From Streptomyces flavofungini (GTDB lineage: Bacteria; Actinomycetota; Actinomycetes; Streptomycetales; Streptomycetaceae), in the NCBI RefSeq assembly GCF_030388665.1, contig NZ_CP128846.1, positions 496,001 to 560,000 on the forward strand: a stretch of DNA of 64,000 bases. The letters run 5' to 3'. Below the pieces are notes generated by a model, which worked only from the letters and a program-made list of their open reading frames with translations, was not told the DNA's origin and made no database searches. Below, piece after piece: positions 1 through 24,363 of this stretch. The first letter of the stretch is position 1; the number at the start of each line of letters is the position of its first letter. Both the position numbers and the translations under genes were made by a program.

Positions 1-1348
1 CGTCCGGGAGTTGAGTGTCCGAGGTCGGGACGTCGGTGTCCGCCTCGACGATGCGGTAGCGGGTCGCCGCCCGGTGGAAGCGGCCGCCCTCCTCTGACAG
101 CTCCGCGTCGAACCGTACGCGCGCCGGATCGTCGGTCAGCGCCGAGCCGTCGAACGGACCGGCCTCCTCCGGCACGGCGGGCCCGGTGTCGTCGGACCAC
201 TGGACGGTGGGTCCGAGCTCGACGAGGTCGCCGAGGCCCGGCTCGGTCCGCGCCCGGACCAGGACCCGCGGTGCTCCCCCGGTGGTGCGGCACAGGAACA
301 CGGCGAGGCCGGGGCGCCGGGGCGCGAGGAGCGGCTGGGCCCACTGCCGTACCTCGCGGGTGCCCGCCTCCACCCGGACCGCGATGATGCGGAACGACCG
401 CGCCGCGTCGTCGGCGATCTCCGTCTCCGTACGGGTCCAGCCGCCGACGTCCGCGAGCGGGACCGGTCGCGCGTCCCAGGGGCAGTGCTGCTTGGCGTCA
501 AGGAGCCAGCTGGTCAGCTCGGACGCGGCAGGCACCGGGGCCGAGGGCGGCACGGGTCCGGCCGCCATGGCTCCCTCGACCACGGGTCCTGCGGGCAGGC
601 ATCCCAGGACGGACCGCGTGTCCATGTTCACCAGATGGTCGACGCTCAGGAGCCGGCGCACCGTACGCAGCGCGATCCAGCGGAAGTCGGGGTGCTCGGC
701 GACCTCCCCGACCGGCTCGACGACCATGTTCCGGTTGTGTTTGCGCCAGAACCACGCGCCCTGTTCGGACTGGAGGGAGTCGACGAGCACCCGGCCGCGG
801 CCGGGGCCCGTGAAGTGCTCCAGGTGGCGGGTCGCACCGCCCCGGTGCACCCGGGTGTAGTTGCTGCGGGTCGCCTGGACGGTGGGCGAGAGCTGGATGC
901 CGTCGATGTTGCCGGGTTCCGCCTTGGCCTGGAGGAGCACGTGCGGTTCGCCGTCCAGGTGCTTGACGAGCAGGCCGAGCACGCCGATCTCCGGTTGCAC
1001 GATCACCGGCTGGTCGCGCCCGGAGCCCTCGGGGCCGCGCACCCGCATCCCGGAGACCGTGAAGAAGCGGCCGCTGTCGTGCACGAGGTCGCCGCCTCGT
1101 GTGAACGACCAGTGCGGCAGGTCCCGAAAGGGGACGGGGGTGACCGACAGCCGGGCCGCGCCGCGCCGTTCGGCCCACCAGGCGGCGAACGCGGCGTCCA
1201 GGTCCGACAGTTCTACGGCCGGGTCCGGCTTGCCCGAAGCCGAAGCGGAAGCCGAAGCGGAAGCGGAAGTCGGAGCCGAAGCCGCGGTCGCGGCGGAGCC
1301 CGGATCCGGCGCCGCCGCGACCGCGGCGCCTCGACGTGACGTGACGAT
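1..1348 (-). CDS. NDP-hexose 2,3-dehydratase, 3' end cut by the window
   Basis: Reading the reverse strand gives a continuous NDP-4-keto-6-deoxyhexose 2,3-dehydratase of the EvaA/TylX3 family, which starts C2 deoxygenation of dTDP-deoxysugars. Recognisable segments are AAFAAWWAERRG, HDSGRFFTVSG, VIVQPEIGVLG, LSPTVQATRSNYT and VNMDTRSVLGCLP; a second, related half follows (LGPTVQWS near the window edge), as in this two-repeat family. About 450 codons are visible, so only a few tens of residues should be missing. The gene follows the aminotransferase in the same frame, just past its TAG stop. No ATG, GTG or TTG lies in frame between that stop and the conserved region. I placed the 5' end at an ATC codon (1348) seven bases after a GGGAGG Shine-Dalgarno-like run; a CTG at 1210 is the alternative. 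The N-terminus is an Ala-Ser repeat. Function is confident, the start is not. Confidence 0.88.
   Translation of the reverse strand, partial: MVTSRRGAAVAAAPDPGSAATAASAPTSASASASASASGKPDPAVELSDLDAAFAAWWAERRGAARLSVTPVPFRDLPHWSFTRGGDLVHDSGRFFTVSGMRVRGPEGSGRDQPVIVQPEIGVLGLLVKHLDGEPHVLLQAKAEPGNIDGIQLSPTVQATRSNYTRVHRGGATRHLEHFTGPGRGRVLVDSLQSEQGAWFWRKHNRNMVVEPVGEVAEHPDFRWIALRTVRRLLSVDHLVNMDTRSVLGCLPAGPVVEGAMAAGPVPPSAPVPAASELTSWLLDAKQHCPWDARPVPLADVGGWTRTETEIADDAARSFRIIAVRVEAGTREVRQWAQPLLAPRRPGLAVFLCRTTGGAPRVLVRARTEPGLGDLVELGPTVQWSDDTGPAVPEEAGPFDGSALTDDPARVRFDAELSEEGGRFHRAATRYRIVEADTDVPTSDTQLPD
1235..1282. repeat. hexanucleotide repeat encoding an Ala-Ser stretch
   Basis: Eight consecutive hexamers close to CGAAGC or GGAAGC lie inside the 5' part of the 2,3-dehydratase gene and encode alternating Ala and Ser on the minus strand. 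Whole-unit slippage would keep the reading frame. Confidence 0.8.
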
Positions 1349-1408
1349 GACGGCACCTCCCGCGGAACGCCGTTGGTCCCGGGCCGTACCCGGTCGAAAT
1401 AATGGGGG

Positions 1409-2518
1409 CTAGAGCGCGGCGAGTACGTCCCGCAGCGCCTCCACGACCAGGTCCTGCTCGGCCTTGGTCAGCGTCGGGTACATGGGCAGCGAGAAGATCT
1501 CGTCGGCGGCCCGCTCGGTGACGGGCAGGTCGCCCCGGCGAAGGCCGAGGTGGGCGAAGCCCTTCATCGTGTGGACGGGCCAGCGGTAGCTGACGTTGAG
1601 GGTGATGTCCCGGGCGGCCATCCCGGCGATGATCCGGTCGCGCTCGGGGTGGCGGACGACGTACAGGTAGTAGACGTGTTCGTTGCCGTCCGCCGACGCG
1701 GGCAGCACGAGGCCGCTGCCGGCGAGCCCTTCCGCGTAGCGGGCGGCGATCGCCCGGCGCGCGGCCAGGTAGTCGTCGAGCCGGGCCAGCTTGCGGCGCA
1801 GGATCTCGGCGTGCACCTCGTCGAGGCGGCTGTTGTGGCCGGGGGTCGCCTCGACGTAGTAGCGGTCCTCCATGCCGTAGTAGCGCAGCCTGCGCAGGGC
1901 GGCGTCGACGGCCGGCGCGGAGGTGATGACGGCCCCGGCGTCGCCGTACGCGCCGAGGACCTTGGTCGGGTAGAAGGAGAACGCGGCGGCGTCCCCGGTC
2001 GTCCCGGCGAGCCTGCCGCGCTGCCGCGCACCGTGGGCCTGCGCGCAGTCCTCCAGGACGGCGAGCCCGTGCGCGGCCGCGTGCTCGGTCAGCGCCGTCA
2101 GGTCGACGCACTGGCCGTAGAGGTGCACCGGAAGGACGCACTTGGTGCGTTCGGTGATGGCGTCCGGCACCCGGTCCACGTCCATCAGATACGTCTCGGG
2201 GTGCACGTCGACGAACACGGGTGTCGCGCCCACGGCGTCGATGGCGACGACGGTGGGCGCCGCCGTGTTGGCGACGGTGATCACCTCGTCGCCGCGGCCG
2301 ACACCGAGCGCGCGCAGACCCAGGACGAGAGCGTTGGTGCCGTTGTCGACACCGGCGCAGTGCGGTACCCCGTGGTAGTCCGCGAACGCCCGCTCGAAGT
2401 CCTCGACGCGCCGGCCGAGGATCAGCTGTCCGGAGCGGAAGACGGTGTCGACGGCGTCGAGGATGTCGGCGCGCTCGGCTTCGTACTCCGCAAGGTAGTT
2501 CCAGACCTTGATGCCCAT
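1409..2518 (-). CDS. dTDP-hexose C3 aminotransferase (DegT/DnrJ/EryC1 family)
   Basis: A 369-residue PLP-dependent sugar aminotransferase. The PLP lysine is in SFYPTKVLGAYGDAG (about residue 186), preceded by VLEDCAQAHGA; the substrate-region motif GHNSRLDEVHAEILRRKL is typical of the family. Next to a 2,3-dehydratase, and with a C-methyltransferase elsewhere in the cluster, transamination of a 3-keto-2,6-dideoxyhexose, as by EvaB-type enzymes, is most likely. The ATG at 2518 has GAGGA nine bases upstream; a GTG at 2524 is possible but sits too close to it. It lies 40 bp downstream of the LmbU-like gene and directly upstream of the dehydratase, so the three probably form one operon. C3 specificity is inferred from context. 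Confidence 0.9.
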   Translation of the reverse strand: MGIKVWNYLAEYEAERADILDAVDTVFRSGQLILGRRVEDFERAFADYHGVPHCAGVDNGTNALVLGLRALGVGRGDEVITVANTAAPTVVAIDAVGATPVFVDVHPETYLMDVDRVPDAITERTKCVLPVHLYGQCVDLTALTEHAAAHGLAVLEDCAQAHGARQRGRLAGTTGDAAAFSFYPTKVLGAYGDAGAVITSAPAVDAALRRLRYYGMEDRYYVEATPGHNSRLDEVHAEILRRKLARLDDYLAARRAIAARYAEGLAGSGLVLPASADGNEHVYYLYVVRHPERDRIIAGMAARDITLNVSYRWPVHTMKGFAHLGLRRGDLPVTERAADEIFSLPMYPTLTKAEQDLVVEALRDVLAAL

Positions 2519-23605: not shown

Positions 23606-23697
23606 ATTGCCTCTCCTCCGTGAGCGGATCGCTCCCCGGCCGCGACGGGACGCCGCGATACGGCGACCGCGGATATCGCGGCCACCGGATCGGGGAA

Positions 23698-24363
23698 TTA
23701 CTCAGAGGCTACGGACGAGTCGGGGCGAGGGGAACGGGACGCGTCGTCCGCGATTTCCGGGCCGAGCGCGGTGGCCGCGGCCTCGTCGACTTTTCGGATC
23801 ATCCAGTCGTTGAGGTCGCTCTCCATGTGCTGGGCGGCCTTCTCCCACCGGTCGCACTGCTCGGCCGACGCGGTCACCTGCACATCCTCCGTCGGCCCCG
23901 CATCCTGCGGCGCGGCGCGCGCGGCCCGCAGGTGCCGGCGCAGCTCGTTGCGGGACCAGCCGTGCTCCTCCGCCTGGGTCAGCCAGTGGTCCTGCGCCGA
24001 TGCGGGCAGCGCCGCGACCTCGGCGTGGTGCTGCAGGCTCAGTCCGTCCCGCCGGCGGGACGGAGGGAACTTGCGGGCGATCCAGGCGTAGTTGCGCAGC
24101 GTCTGGTAATCGAGCGACGTTTGCTCGATCGCATCGCGATAGCGGCGCGGATAGGTCTGCTGGCCGAATACCAGCCAGTCTCCCAGCCACCACGCGGATG
24201 AATCGACAATGGCAAATATCTGCTCTCCGATGGTTTTCCAGTGCTCCAGTGGCAGATAATCGGGCAAGGAGAGCGAGGACCGTCGCGTGCGCGCCCGGTC
24301 GTCCACGGTTAGCTTCTCCTGCGGGCCGCTCATGTTCGGTGTGGGATGTCGTAGATTCGGCAT
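23698..24363 (-). CDS. LmbU/NovE-family transcriptional regulator (copy 2)
   Basis: A 221-residue regulator sharing the core of copy 1: VDSSAWWLGDWLVFGQ, YQTLRNYAWIARKF, LSLQHHAEVAAL and GWSRNELRRHLRAARAA. The ATG has GGGGGAGA upstream. Like copy 1 it begins a minus-strand operon whose next gene is a sugar-modifying enzyme. The C-terminal 60 residues are different from copy 1, which may set partner or effector specificity. Confidence 0.88.
   Translation of the reverse strand: MPNLRHPTPNMSGPQEKLTVDDRARTRRSSLSLPDYLPLEHWKTIGEQIFAIVDSSAWWLGDWLVFGQQTYPRRYRDAIEQTSLDYQTLRNYAWIARKFPPSRRRDGLSLQHHAEVAALPASAQDHWLTQAEEHGWSRNELRRHLRAARAAPQDAGPTEDVQVTASAEQCDRWEKAAQHMESDLNDWMIRKVDEAAATALGPEIADDASRSPRPDSSVASE

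Follow-up and report, generated by a model that had tools for sequence, protein, structure and literature searches.

Does the stretch of Streptomyces flavofungini DNA that carries a class III lanthipeptide synthetase among acyl, aryl and amino-sugar genes build one molecule, or does it hold two pathways side by side? We analyzed a window of 64,000 nucleotides (contig NZ_CP128846.1, positions 496,001 to 560,000); coordinates below are those of the window. We infer, at a probability of roughly 60%, a small thioether-bridged peptide, likely N-acylated by a GNAT enzyme from a chain bound to an acyl carrier protein (ACP) and likely bearing an amino sugar of the vancosamine type together with an aryl group made from tyrosine.

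Extent and conservation of the gene block

Family searches recovered the full inventory of the original prediction in one block: a LanKC, two 27-residue precursors, a GNAT enzyme, two ACPs, a fatty acyl-AMP ligase (FAAL), a short AMP-ligase, a tyrosine-type MIO enzyme, a ketosynthase, two glycosyltransferases and branched-aminosugar genes. The real block is larger, running left past the window start and right to 26379, the end of a flavin N-hydroxylase relative. Immediately beyond the left edge of the window, this genome carries a FabG-like gene, an NAD-dependent epimerase/reductase and a dTDP-sugar 3,5-epimerase; these three genes, the FAD gene at 24598-26379 and two LmbU-family regulators had not been listed before. 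Both regulators are on the minus strand (2559..3263, 223 bits; 23698..24333, 229 bits when run on 23698-24363; NF038070, cut-off 125). An ABC exporter with fused membrane and ATPase domains (7064..8950, plus strand; PF00664, PF00005) is also present. Apart from the sugar enzymes described below, the searches turned up no dehydratase and no peptidase in this block, which counts against the pathway proposed below.

The gene order is common to five further Streptomyces species, six in all. The order from the left-arm ketoreductase to glycosyltransferase 1 is kept in all five, that from the ketosynthase to the FAD gene in four, and RmlA-RmlB-ACP2 in the two where it could be read. A diverged copy, spread over two contigs, occurs in a bacterium of another family (G448). 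Strain NPDC057638 has a GNAT, a LanKC and a MIO enzyme, each recorded on a contig 17,721 bases long.

Precursors, synthetase and acyl machinery

Adjoining LanKC are two short precursor genes with a class III leader and a Ser/Cys core, recognized by sequence and conservation: precursor 1, MNVLELQELETSTLDDELLGSTGSVGC (15411..15494, plus strand), and precursor 2 (15624..15707, plus strand), which has the same leader and the core STGSVNC. Both encode 27 residues, ending in STGSVGC and STGSVNC, and carry the class III leader motif LxLQxLE. The 12 precursors of the six species are identical save residue 26 (G/N/D), every one ending in the SxxSxxC unit STGSV[G/N/D]C, and six of the seven variable codons show silent changes only. 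This near-identity, with mostly silent codon changes, shows that the pair are real, constrained genes and not chance frames. Against the NCBIfam models for such precursors, the score stays under the cut-off (22.4 of 30 bits); the class III models that they resemble include SapB/AmfS. The cores of the G448 copy are SGISSDC and SSVSVDC. The core had been put at seven residues. Eight, (G)STGSVxC, is probably correct from alignment with the lipolanthine 8-mers, since G-S-T-G-S-V-x-C matches the nocaviogua spacing Ala1-Avi2-Avi5-Avi8 given in an excerpt of PMC10435860; the cleavage site is accordingly a predicted one.

The synthetase (12643..15414, plus strand; NF038151 918 bits, cut-off 575) has the class III architecture of RamC-type N-terminal domain, kinase and LanC-like cyclase, with PF25816 and PF05147 above cut-off and PF00069 just under it (29.4 of 31.7 bits). 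Of the two ring types first offered, avionin is unsupported because the cluster has no LanD-type decarboxylase (PF02441). The genome's two PF02441 matches lie at 3.97 and 7.83 Mb, and no strong match was found in the related clusters of 18 related genomes, several of which are draft assemblies, with the G444 cluster not placed on a contig. The sole match inside the fetched GNAT-LanKC stretches is weak (G194, 26.5 bits), and the nearest other one on a cluster's contig lies 54 kb off (G137). A SapB-like morphogenetic lanthipeptide surrounded by passenger genes would fit the three further LanKC genes of this genome and the sub-cut-off likeness to SapB/AmfS models. We regard it as highly improbable, given a core with a single SxxSxxC unit, the linked GNAT and ketosynthase, and the conserved tailoring genes.

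The GNAT acyltransferase (11782..12477, plus strand; PF13302) is the predicted N-acylase of the peptide. Its search matched 13 of 392 Streptomyces genomes, this one included. All 12 relatives fetched (33-38% identity) lie near STxSxxC precursors and 11 lie near a LanKC, which is the next gene in eight loci and within 8 kb in three; the twelfth locus holds precursors alone, at a contig end. A ketosynthase-family gene stands within about 6 kb of every one. None of the 12 stretches gave a match to the cluster's aminotransferase, 2,3-dehydratase, C-methyltransferase, RmlA or RmlB, so the GNAT follows the peptide and not the sugar, and its company of precursors and LanKC supports a role as N-acyltransferase of the peptide. 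The block itself links GNAT, ketosynthase and ACPs to LanKC. Were the enzyme instead to serve self-resistance or sugar N-acetylation, leaving the peptide N-terminus unacylated, its weak sequence similarity to acetyltransferases of the RimJ-like, spermidine and bleomycin kinds and the amino sugar predicted here would be explained. This is distinctly unlikely, as the 12 loci of its relatives all have LanKC or its precursors nearby and none of the amino-sugar genes, and an excerpt of PMC13060382 describes N-terminal lipidation of the class III microvionin, goadvionins and lipoavitides.

ACP1 (GIDSLS; 4047..4310, plus strand; PF00550 on a shorter start, and translation) sits next to the short ligase and the lyase. 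In G448, an ACP-like frame (LDSLS) is likewise found just upstream of the ligase. ACP2 (19289..19537, plus strand) is assigned from its DSF motif and from NCBIfam ACP models below cut-off, with no Pfam match; the protein is 82-83% identical in the two relatives where it is readable (L011, L032). That ACP2 is so divergent, and that no product is known, counts against the pathway proposed below. The FAAL-type ligase (8947..10716, plus strand; PF00501 and PF23024, NCBIfam FAAL models below cut-off) is conserved in the six species and in G448 and shares 47% identity with a protein beside the GNAT relative of L070. The FabF-like ketosynthase (20877..22226, plus strand; PF00109, PF02801) retains Cys-His-His motifs.

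At the right end, the FAD/NADP enzyme (24598..26379, plus strand; PF13454; 8cp2 E 5.7e-78) is related to aspartate N-hydroxylase and has relatives in 8 of the 12 GNAT loci. Among the substrate residues of aspartate N-hydroxylase named in an excerpt of PMC10404684 (Arg13, Arg276, Asn413, Arg416, Arg577), Arg13 and Arg276 are kept, Asn413 and Arg416 are replaced and Arg577 falls beyond the aligned part, in an alignment read by eye. With Asn413 and Arg416 replaced, the enzyme does not qualify as an aspartate N-hydroxylase by these residues.

The aryl and sugar cassette

The MIO enzyme (5548..7083, plus strand; PF00221 E 1.3e-112) is an aromatic amino acid lyase or aminomutase with the Ala-Ser-Gly triad and His-Leu at the tyrosine selectivity site. 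The triad SASGDL is present in all 18 enzymes read and HL in 17; in L023 the site falls beyond the stretch that was read. None of the NCBIfam models for lyases and aminomutases reaches its cut-off, the best being histidine ammonia-lyase. In excerpts of PMC8773403, the selectivity residue of the R. sphaeroides TAL is His89 and one true TAL has Tyr there; since our site was placed by motif and not by structure alignment, the His is suggestive only.

The short AMP-forming ligase (4328..5551, plus strand) is 4-coumarate-ligase-like, matching TIGR02372 far below cut-off (E 2.4e-18). In alignments, its A10 (adenylation) lysine is missing in all six species of the clade, two of which have repeat-ridden tails, and is present in all 12 relatives read. 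Both acyl-AMP ligases of the original prediction are present. Aryl activation is weaker as a step than had been assumed: it may be gone, or the FAAL may have taken it over, which counts against the proposed pathway. This bears on a reading in which the acyl starter comes from the MIO enzyme: p-coumaroyl-ACP1, extended by the ketosynthase, would form the N-terminal cap, and fatty acids would have no role. ACP1, ligase and lyase in one gene run and the intact Cys-His-His of the ketosynthase speak for it; we consider it doubtful in view of the missing lysine and of the conservation and GNAT linkage of the FAAL noted above.

The sugar set is complete at seven enzymes. The NDP-hexose 2,3-dehydratase (2..1084, minus strand, running on past the window start to about -106; PF03559 E 2.4e-108) and the DegT-type aminotransferase of the deoxysugar pathway (1409..2518, minus strand; PF01041 E 5.5e-108) are conserved at 78-90% and 88-93% in five species. 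RmlA, the glucose-1-phosphate thymidylyltransferase (17311..18141, plus strand; TIGR01207 408 bits, cut-off 361, run on 17269-18141), precedes RmlB, the dTDP-glucose 4,6-dehydratase (18164..19183, plus strand; TIGR01181 419 bits, cut-off 365). The C-methyltransferase is of vancosamine/noviose type with a zinc domain (22379..23605, minus strand; PF08421, PF13489, PF08484). The epimerase and the 4-ketoreductase lie left of the window, the latter assigned at the level of the NAD-dependent epimerase/dehydratase family (PF01370). These are the seven steps of a vancosamine-type dTDP-sugar route; the sugar is a predicted one, as family models cannot separate 3-C from 5-C methylation. A TylF-type O-methyltransferase (10782..11561, minus strand; PF05711 E 4.4e-103 for the longer frame 10782-11816) is also encoded. 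Glycosyltransferases 1 (15896..17176, minus strand; 452 bits) and 2 (19534..20862, plus strand; 451 bits) are both of the activator-dependent type (TIGR04516, cut-off 440), yet no P450-like gene came up in the family searches, which covered the genes between -3948 and 26379; this counts against the proposal.

Lyase and ligase are adjacent in all 13 other MIO loci, 10 of which have deoxysugar genes. Four loci (L021, L022, L075, L078/L088) combine the cassette with nonribosomal peptide synthetase (NRPS) genes and have no LanKC in the stretch, and genome G736 has the cassette but gave no match to LanKC at an E-value of 1e-60. The cassette is therefore portable. Together with G265 and G348, where it and a GNAT-LanKC locus occupy separate places, these loci indicate that the peptide and cassette halves are separable. 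The original prediction had named sugar and lyase genes without LanKC in related genomes as evidence against itself, and this is in part what we find. Two interleaved pathways could then be at work, an acyl-lanthipeptide one (ketosynthase, GNAT, LanKC, LanA, FAD gene) and an aryl-sugar one (MIO enzyme, ligase, sugar genes, glycosyltransferases) decorating another molecule; that none of the 12 GNAT-LanKC stretches matches cassette genes agrees with this. Against it, six species keep the two sets interleaved, and both turn up again in G448; in NPDC057638, GNAT, LanKC and MIO enzyme are on contigs of equal length, and at three further loci (L074, L076, L077) another LanKC accompanies the cassette. 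We judge the two-pathway reading unlikely. The claim of a single unit making an acylated, glycosylated class III lanthipeptide thus draws support from gene order, the G448 copy and the GNAT-LanKC-STxSxxC linkage, and is weakened by the LanKC-free NRPS loci.

Proposed pathway and known systems

In the single-product reading, LanKC would dehydrate Ser21 and Ser24, and Cys27 would close a labionin or lanthionine ring; the C-terminal carboxylate would be retained, as there is no LanD. A protease from outside the cluster would remove the leader before Gly20 (or Ser21). The FAAL and an ACP would load a fatty or aryl acid, the ketosynthase and FabG-like reductase would extend or reduce it, and the GNAT would transfer the acyl group to the new N-terminus. 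The MIO enzyme would convert tyrosine to p-coumarate (or beta-tyrosine), carried on ACP1, and the sugar enzymes would make a dTDP 3-amino-3-C-methyl-2,3,6-trideoxyhexose that the glycosyltransferases would attach, with the aryl phenol or Thr22 as the most plausible acceptor. The ABC protein would export the product. More tentatively, and with the odds somewhat against it, the NRPS/RiPP-mobile cassette might build a glyco-aryl cap (a p-coumarate-derived acyl group with the branched amino sugar) on carrier proteins, the GNAT joining this cap, as such or after extension, to a labionin peptide of eight residues and the N-hydroxylase-like flavoenzyme adding further oxidation; the product would then be a glycosylated aryl-polyketide-lanthipeptide.

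If as predicted, the product would bring together three styles of biosynthesis in a single antibiotic-like molecule. Only a few acylated class III lanthipeptides are known, and one of them, microvionin, is active against MRSA according to an excerpt of PMC10435860. Adding the sugar and the tyrosine unit to such a peptide would mean that ribosomal and nonribosomal peptides draw on the same decorating cassette. The GNAT-LanKC-ketosynthase linkage offers a simple genome-mining handle for STxSxxC peptides, with matches in 13 of 392 Streptomyces genomes. With an SxxSxxC core and no LanD, the cluster allows a direct test of what determines labionin versus avionin.

Judged by its genes, the cluster belongs with the acylated class III lanthipeptides, with predicted attachment points for the acyl, aryl and sugar groups. 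Lipoavitides reportedly (Ren et al. 2024) join a RiPP to the product of discrete fatty-acid enzymes by an acyltransferase, with a KASIII-based short acyl group, whereas the S. flavofungini cluster has a FabF-type ketosynthase, FAAL, sugar genes and a lyase; LpvE is named in that system. Goadvionins, said to come from Streptomyces sp. TP-A0584, share a class III LanKC, ours being 45% identical to P0109 of that strain and those of L061, L064, L065 (partial) and L013 closer (51-55%). As is predicted here, a dedicated acyltransferase, named GdvG in an excerpt of PMC12837651, links their short peptide to its acyl chain. Unlike them, the S. flavofungini block is without LanD and type I PKS and has an aryl and deoxyaminosugar cassette. 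To our knowledge, NAI-112 is a longer, unacylated peptide with no lyase and no branched amino sugar. It resembles the predicted product as a labionin-type peptide with a sugar, being a glycosylated labionin lanthipeptide in the abstract of PMC8624038. Among lipolanthines (microvionin, nocavionin, nocaviogua), nocaviogua A shares the core spacing described above; in the excerpt of PMC12076493, the decarboxylase MicD acts with MicKC, a type of enzyme not found in the S. flavofungini cluster, and the lipolanthine excerpts mention neither the sugar nor the lyase for which this cluster has genes. The NRPS loci L021, L022 and L078/L088 differ in carrying nonribosomal peptide genes with no LanKC in the stretch, and are alike in the cassette: 62-63% identity in the MIO enzyme, 48-52% in the ligase, 67-70% in the C-methyltransferase and 67-69% in RmlA, with 70% in the aminotransferase and 53% in the 2,3-dehydratase of L088.

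Extent and conservation of the cluster

Every gene named in the original prediction was borne out by gene calling and by Pfam and NCBIfam scans, with LanKC (12643-15414) scoring 918 bits against a curated cut-off of 575. Genes in this 9.36-Mb genome (window at G000:C1:496001-560000) were called with a purpose-built GC-frame caller, and start positions are possibly off. The limits that the prediction had drawn around the block proved too narrow, as the unit runs further at both its left and its right ends. Its right-hand member is the FAD gene (24598-26379), and to the left of the window (negative positions) it takes in a 3,5-epimerase (-812 to -165), an NAD-dependent epimerase/ketoreductase (-2181 to -1105) and a FabG-like gene (-3119 to -2415). 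The whole block spans 29 kb, and the TetR and MFS genes at its flanks may or may not be part of it.

The block is one conserved unit. A LanKC search of genome contigs returned six relatives; five of these, with LanKC 75-86% identical, come from Streptomyces alboflavus, S. flavofungini, S. aureocirculatus, S. typhae and S. lasiicapitis. The order ACP1-ligase-MIO-ABC-FAAL-TylF-GNAT-LanKC-LanA-LanA-GT1 is unchanged in all five, as is that of the left arm (regulator-aminotransferase-dehydratase-epimerase-ketoreductase-FabG-like). The stretch from the ketosynthase (KS, 20877-22226) to the FAD gene is present in four of the five, the S. flavofungini relative being missed by the KS search at E 1e-150. 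RmlA-RmlB-ACP2 could be read in two of the five only, because the contigs of four relatives stop inside the glycosyltransferase gene GT1 (15896-17176), which is largely repeated in GT2 (19534-20862); the two genes have long near-identical stretches in common, as after gene conversion.

The sixth relative, L013 from Streptomyces sp. NRRL WC-3742 (LanKC 47%), is a different cluster. Next to its LanKC are a KS, an ACP, an SDR/enoyl-reductase-type gene, a P450 and a ribonucleotide-reductase-like diiron gene, and two of its three precursors run past the final Cys (STVSNACGQ, STVSNNCQ). The S. flavofungini genome itself holds further LanKC genes, namely a tandem pair at G000:C1:144758-150355 (L003, L004), where the match of one runs across a TGA, and another at 6.65 Mb.

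A diverged copy is spread over two contigs in G448, a genome of another family of the same class. Identities there are 50% for the ligase, 68% for the MIO enzyme, 61% for the ABC gene, 52% for FAAL, 71% for the aminotransferase, 56% for the dehydratase, 61% for the epimerase, 50% for the ketoreductase, 66% for the FabG-like gene, 70% for the C-methyltransferase, 61% for KS, 48-50% for LanKC, 34% for GNAT and 36% for the FAD gene. An LmbU regulator and, ahead of the ligase, an ACP-like frame are also found, as are precursors with the C-termini SGISSDC and SSVSVDC. RmlA, RmlB, TylF and ACP2 were not seen in a scan that covered both contigs up to the final 6 kb of one. With glycosyltransferase fragments at their ends, we infer that the two contigs join. 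In strain NPDC057638, GNAT (59%), LanKC (59%) and the MIO enzyme (76%) are each listed on a 17,721-base contig, which we take to be one and the same.

Two border questions were weighed. The FabG-like gene, whose name comes from a sequence motif and to which Pfam assigns SDR families only, has relatives in 146 of 150 genomes and could be a housekeeping gene outside the cluster. We demoted this reading because a second copy (66% identical) sits at 7.32 Mb and because G448 has a 66% relative just one gene away from its ketoreductase. The gene does not directly adjoin the ketoreductase in S. flavofungini or S. aureocirculatus, where one or two small frames intervene. At the other end, the genes at 26390-30300 were ruled out as members, since a UPF0047 gene directly follows the FAD gene in S. 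aureocirculatus and S. typhae; S. alboflavus and S. lasiicapitis carry different, unrelated genes at the corresponding place. This variable spot between the FAD and UPF0047 genes holds TetR, af470-like monooxygenase, CN-hydrolase, SDR and other genes.

Peptide, predicted acylation and probable ring type

LanKC and the first precursor gene overlap by four bases, and the second begins 129 bases after the first. Both precursors have 27 residues: the first is MNVLELQELETSTLDDELLGSTGSVGC and the second is the same except for SVNC. Twelve copies from six species are identical except at residue 26 (G, N or D); seven of the 27 codons vary, six of them silently only, and the gap between the two copies ranges from 47 to 187 bases across species.

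Acylation of this peptide is predicted from the GNAT gene. A whole-genome search at E 1e-25 matched 13 of 392 Streptomyces genomes, own included, and all 12 others were fetched. LanKC is the neighboring gene in eight (L059, L060, L062, L063, L066-L069) and lies <8 kb away in three (L061, L064, L065); in L070, at a contig end, precursors alone are near. Precursors ending STxSxxC occur in 12/12 (STISGGC, STVSTGC, STVSGGC, STVSSHC, STASNHC, STISNSC, STVSNNC, STVSQNC), a pattern that is partly by construction, as S[T/S]xSxxC was what the scan sought; a common leader and the position give independent support, and one L063 minus-strand match lacking the leader was dropped. A ketosynthase-family gene lies within ~6 kb in all 12, at 48-51% identity to the KS of this cluster in nine and 31-38% in L061, L064 and L065, and a FAD-gene relative is present in eight. 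The aminotransferase, 2,3-dehydratase, C-methyltransferase, RmlA and RmlB of this cluster have no match in any of the 12 stretches. This linkage to LanKC and precursors at loci free of sugar genes is the strongest evidence on GNAT; it supports action on the peptide and demotes the alternative of a plain acetyltransferase. An earlier protein-database search gave 11 matches and says little on rarity, since it missed the 33-38% relatives.

Seven of the 392 genomes (L059, L060, L062, L063, L066, L068, L069) carry a KS-GNAT-LanKC-LanA-FAD set with three near-identical tandem precursors. A glycosyltransferase-like gene adjoins GNAT in L061, L064 and L065, and in L061 a GT, a PIG-L deacetylase and an arginase-family gene are Pfam-confirmed. 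Given these three loci, glycosylation may be a recurring trait of the GNAT-LanKC peptide family.

The FAD gene has one PDB match, 8cp2 (E 5.7e-78), presented in the relevant passages of PMC10404684 as an L-aspartate N-hydroxylase. In the alignment, read by eye, Arg13, Arg276 and Arg409 are kept and Arg266, Arg412, Asn413 and Arg416 are replaced; flavin N-oxidation of a substrate other than aspartate is plausible. Because its relatives also turn up at LanKC-GNAT loci that lack sugar genes, the enzyme more likely acts on the peptide or acyl unit than on the sugar.

The core had been proposed to span seven residues. In the GNAT loci STxSxxC is preceded by G, A or S, and in two L013 precursors by T; in G448 the SxxSxxC follows an L. 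Nocaviogua A, in the structure as quoted from PMC10435860, reads Ala1, Avi2, Val3, Ser4, Avi5, Asp6, Avi8; its spacing matches with one residue in front, and by this analogy eight residues are likelier.

An avionin ring formed through a LanD of the cluster was rejected after PF02441 searches of own and related genomes. The only two PF02441 genes of the genome lie elsewhere, at 3.97 and 7.83 Mb. Across 18 related genomes (several drafts, with the L013 contig unplaced), a single match falls in a GNAT-LanKC stretch and is weak (26.5 bits, G194; L062 648-1076, ~7 kb from the GNAT-LanKC pair); the next nearest that shares a contig with a cluster is 54 kb off (G137). With no PF02441 gene in the cluster, we predict a labionin or lanthionine that keeps its carboxylate. 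Calculated neutral masses after loss of two waters are 630.243 for GSTGSVGC and 687.265 for GSTGSVNC, and an avionin form would be lighter by 46.005. Avionin peptides have this same SxxSxxC spacing, which leaves the labionin assignment uncertain too.

The lyase-ligase-sugar cassette

The MIO enzyme carries an Ala-Ser-Gly triad, and its His-Leu pair falls where Rhodobacter sphaeroides tyrosine ammonia-lyase has His89; the pertinent part of PMC8773403 also names a true tyrosine ammonia-lyase with Tyr there. Searches matched 5 of 392 genomes at E 1e-100 and 10 of 394 at E 1e-170, own genome in both, and gave 13 other loci, all fetched. A ligase (35-52% identical) adjoins the enzyme in all 13; in L024, where the gene caller missed the MIO frame, it was located by tblastn. 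A strict short-ligase search in 120 relatives matched the own genome alone.

Related genomes with the sugar and lyase block but no LanKC would have counted against the original prediction, and such cases partly turned up. dTDP-sugar genes lie in the stretch at ten of the 13 loci (exceptions L023, L024 and L079) and LanKC in three (L074, L076, L077), and G448 has it on the other of its two contigs; NRPS condensation domains were confirmed at four (L021, L022, L075, L078). Among the 12 MIO-locus genomes searched with LanKC at E 1e-60, G736, G588 and G009 had no match, and in G736 the cassette comes with two GTs and a TylF relative. In G265 and G348 the cassette and a GNAT-LanKC locus both occur, at different sites. 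Aryl-unit and sugar genes thus tend to travel together, with either peptide backbone, which suggests, without proving it, that the two are joined, the sugar being carried by the aryl unit or vice versa.

The A10 lysine of the short ligase (4328-5551) is kept in 12/12 relatives with tails read (a count that leaves out L024) and is missing from all six species of its own clade. FAAL may have taken over its role, or the step may have changed. In S. aureocirculatus and S. typhae (L010, L011), TDR-rich repeats are inserted close to the end of the ligase gene.

A second lanthipeptide type (L074/L080, L076/L081, L077/L082) shares the lyase-ligase-RmlAB cassette and carries several GTs. Precursors in L081 and L082 end NSGISYFGCS or NSGVSYVGCS, a labionin-like spacing, and L074 has KASIII and acyl-CoA dehydrogenase genes next to the lyase.

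Relation to known lanthipeptides

Among class III lanthipeptides, microvionin, goadvionins and lipoavitides are described in PMC13060382 as lipidated at the N-terminus, and labionin peptides that bear a sugar are known from NAI-112 (PMC8624038). In the open-licence literature we found no paper that brings together LanKC, an MIO lyase and a branched amino sugar, and no described product with this gene set. The LanKC of strain TP-A0584, which we take to be the goadvionin producer, is 45% identical to that of this cluster. We file the cluster as an acylated class III lanthipeptide that differs from the known ones, and do not count it among the avionin-type lipolanthines.
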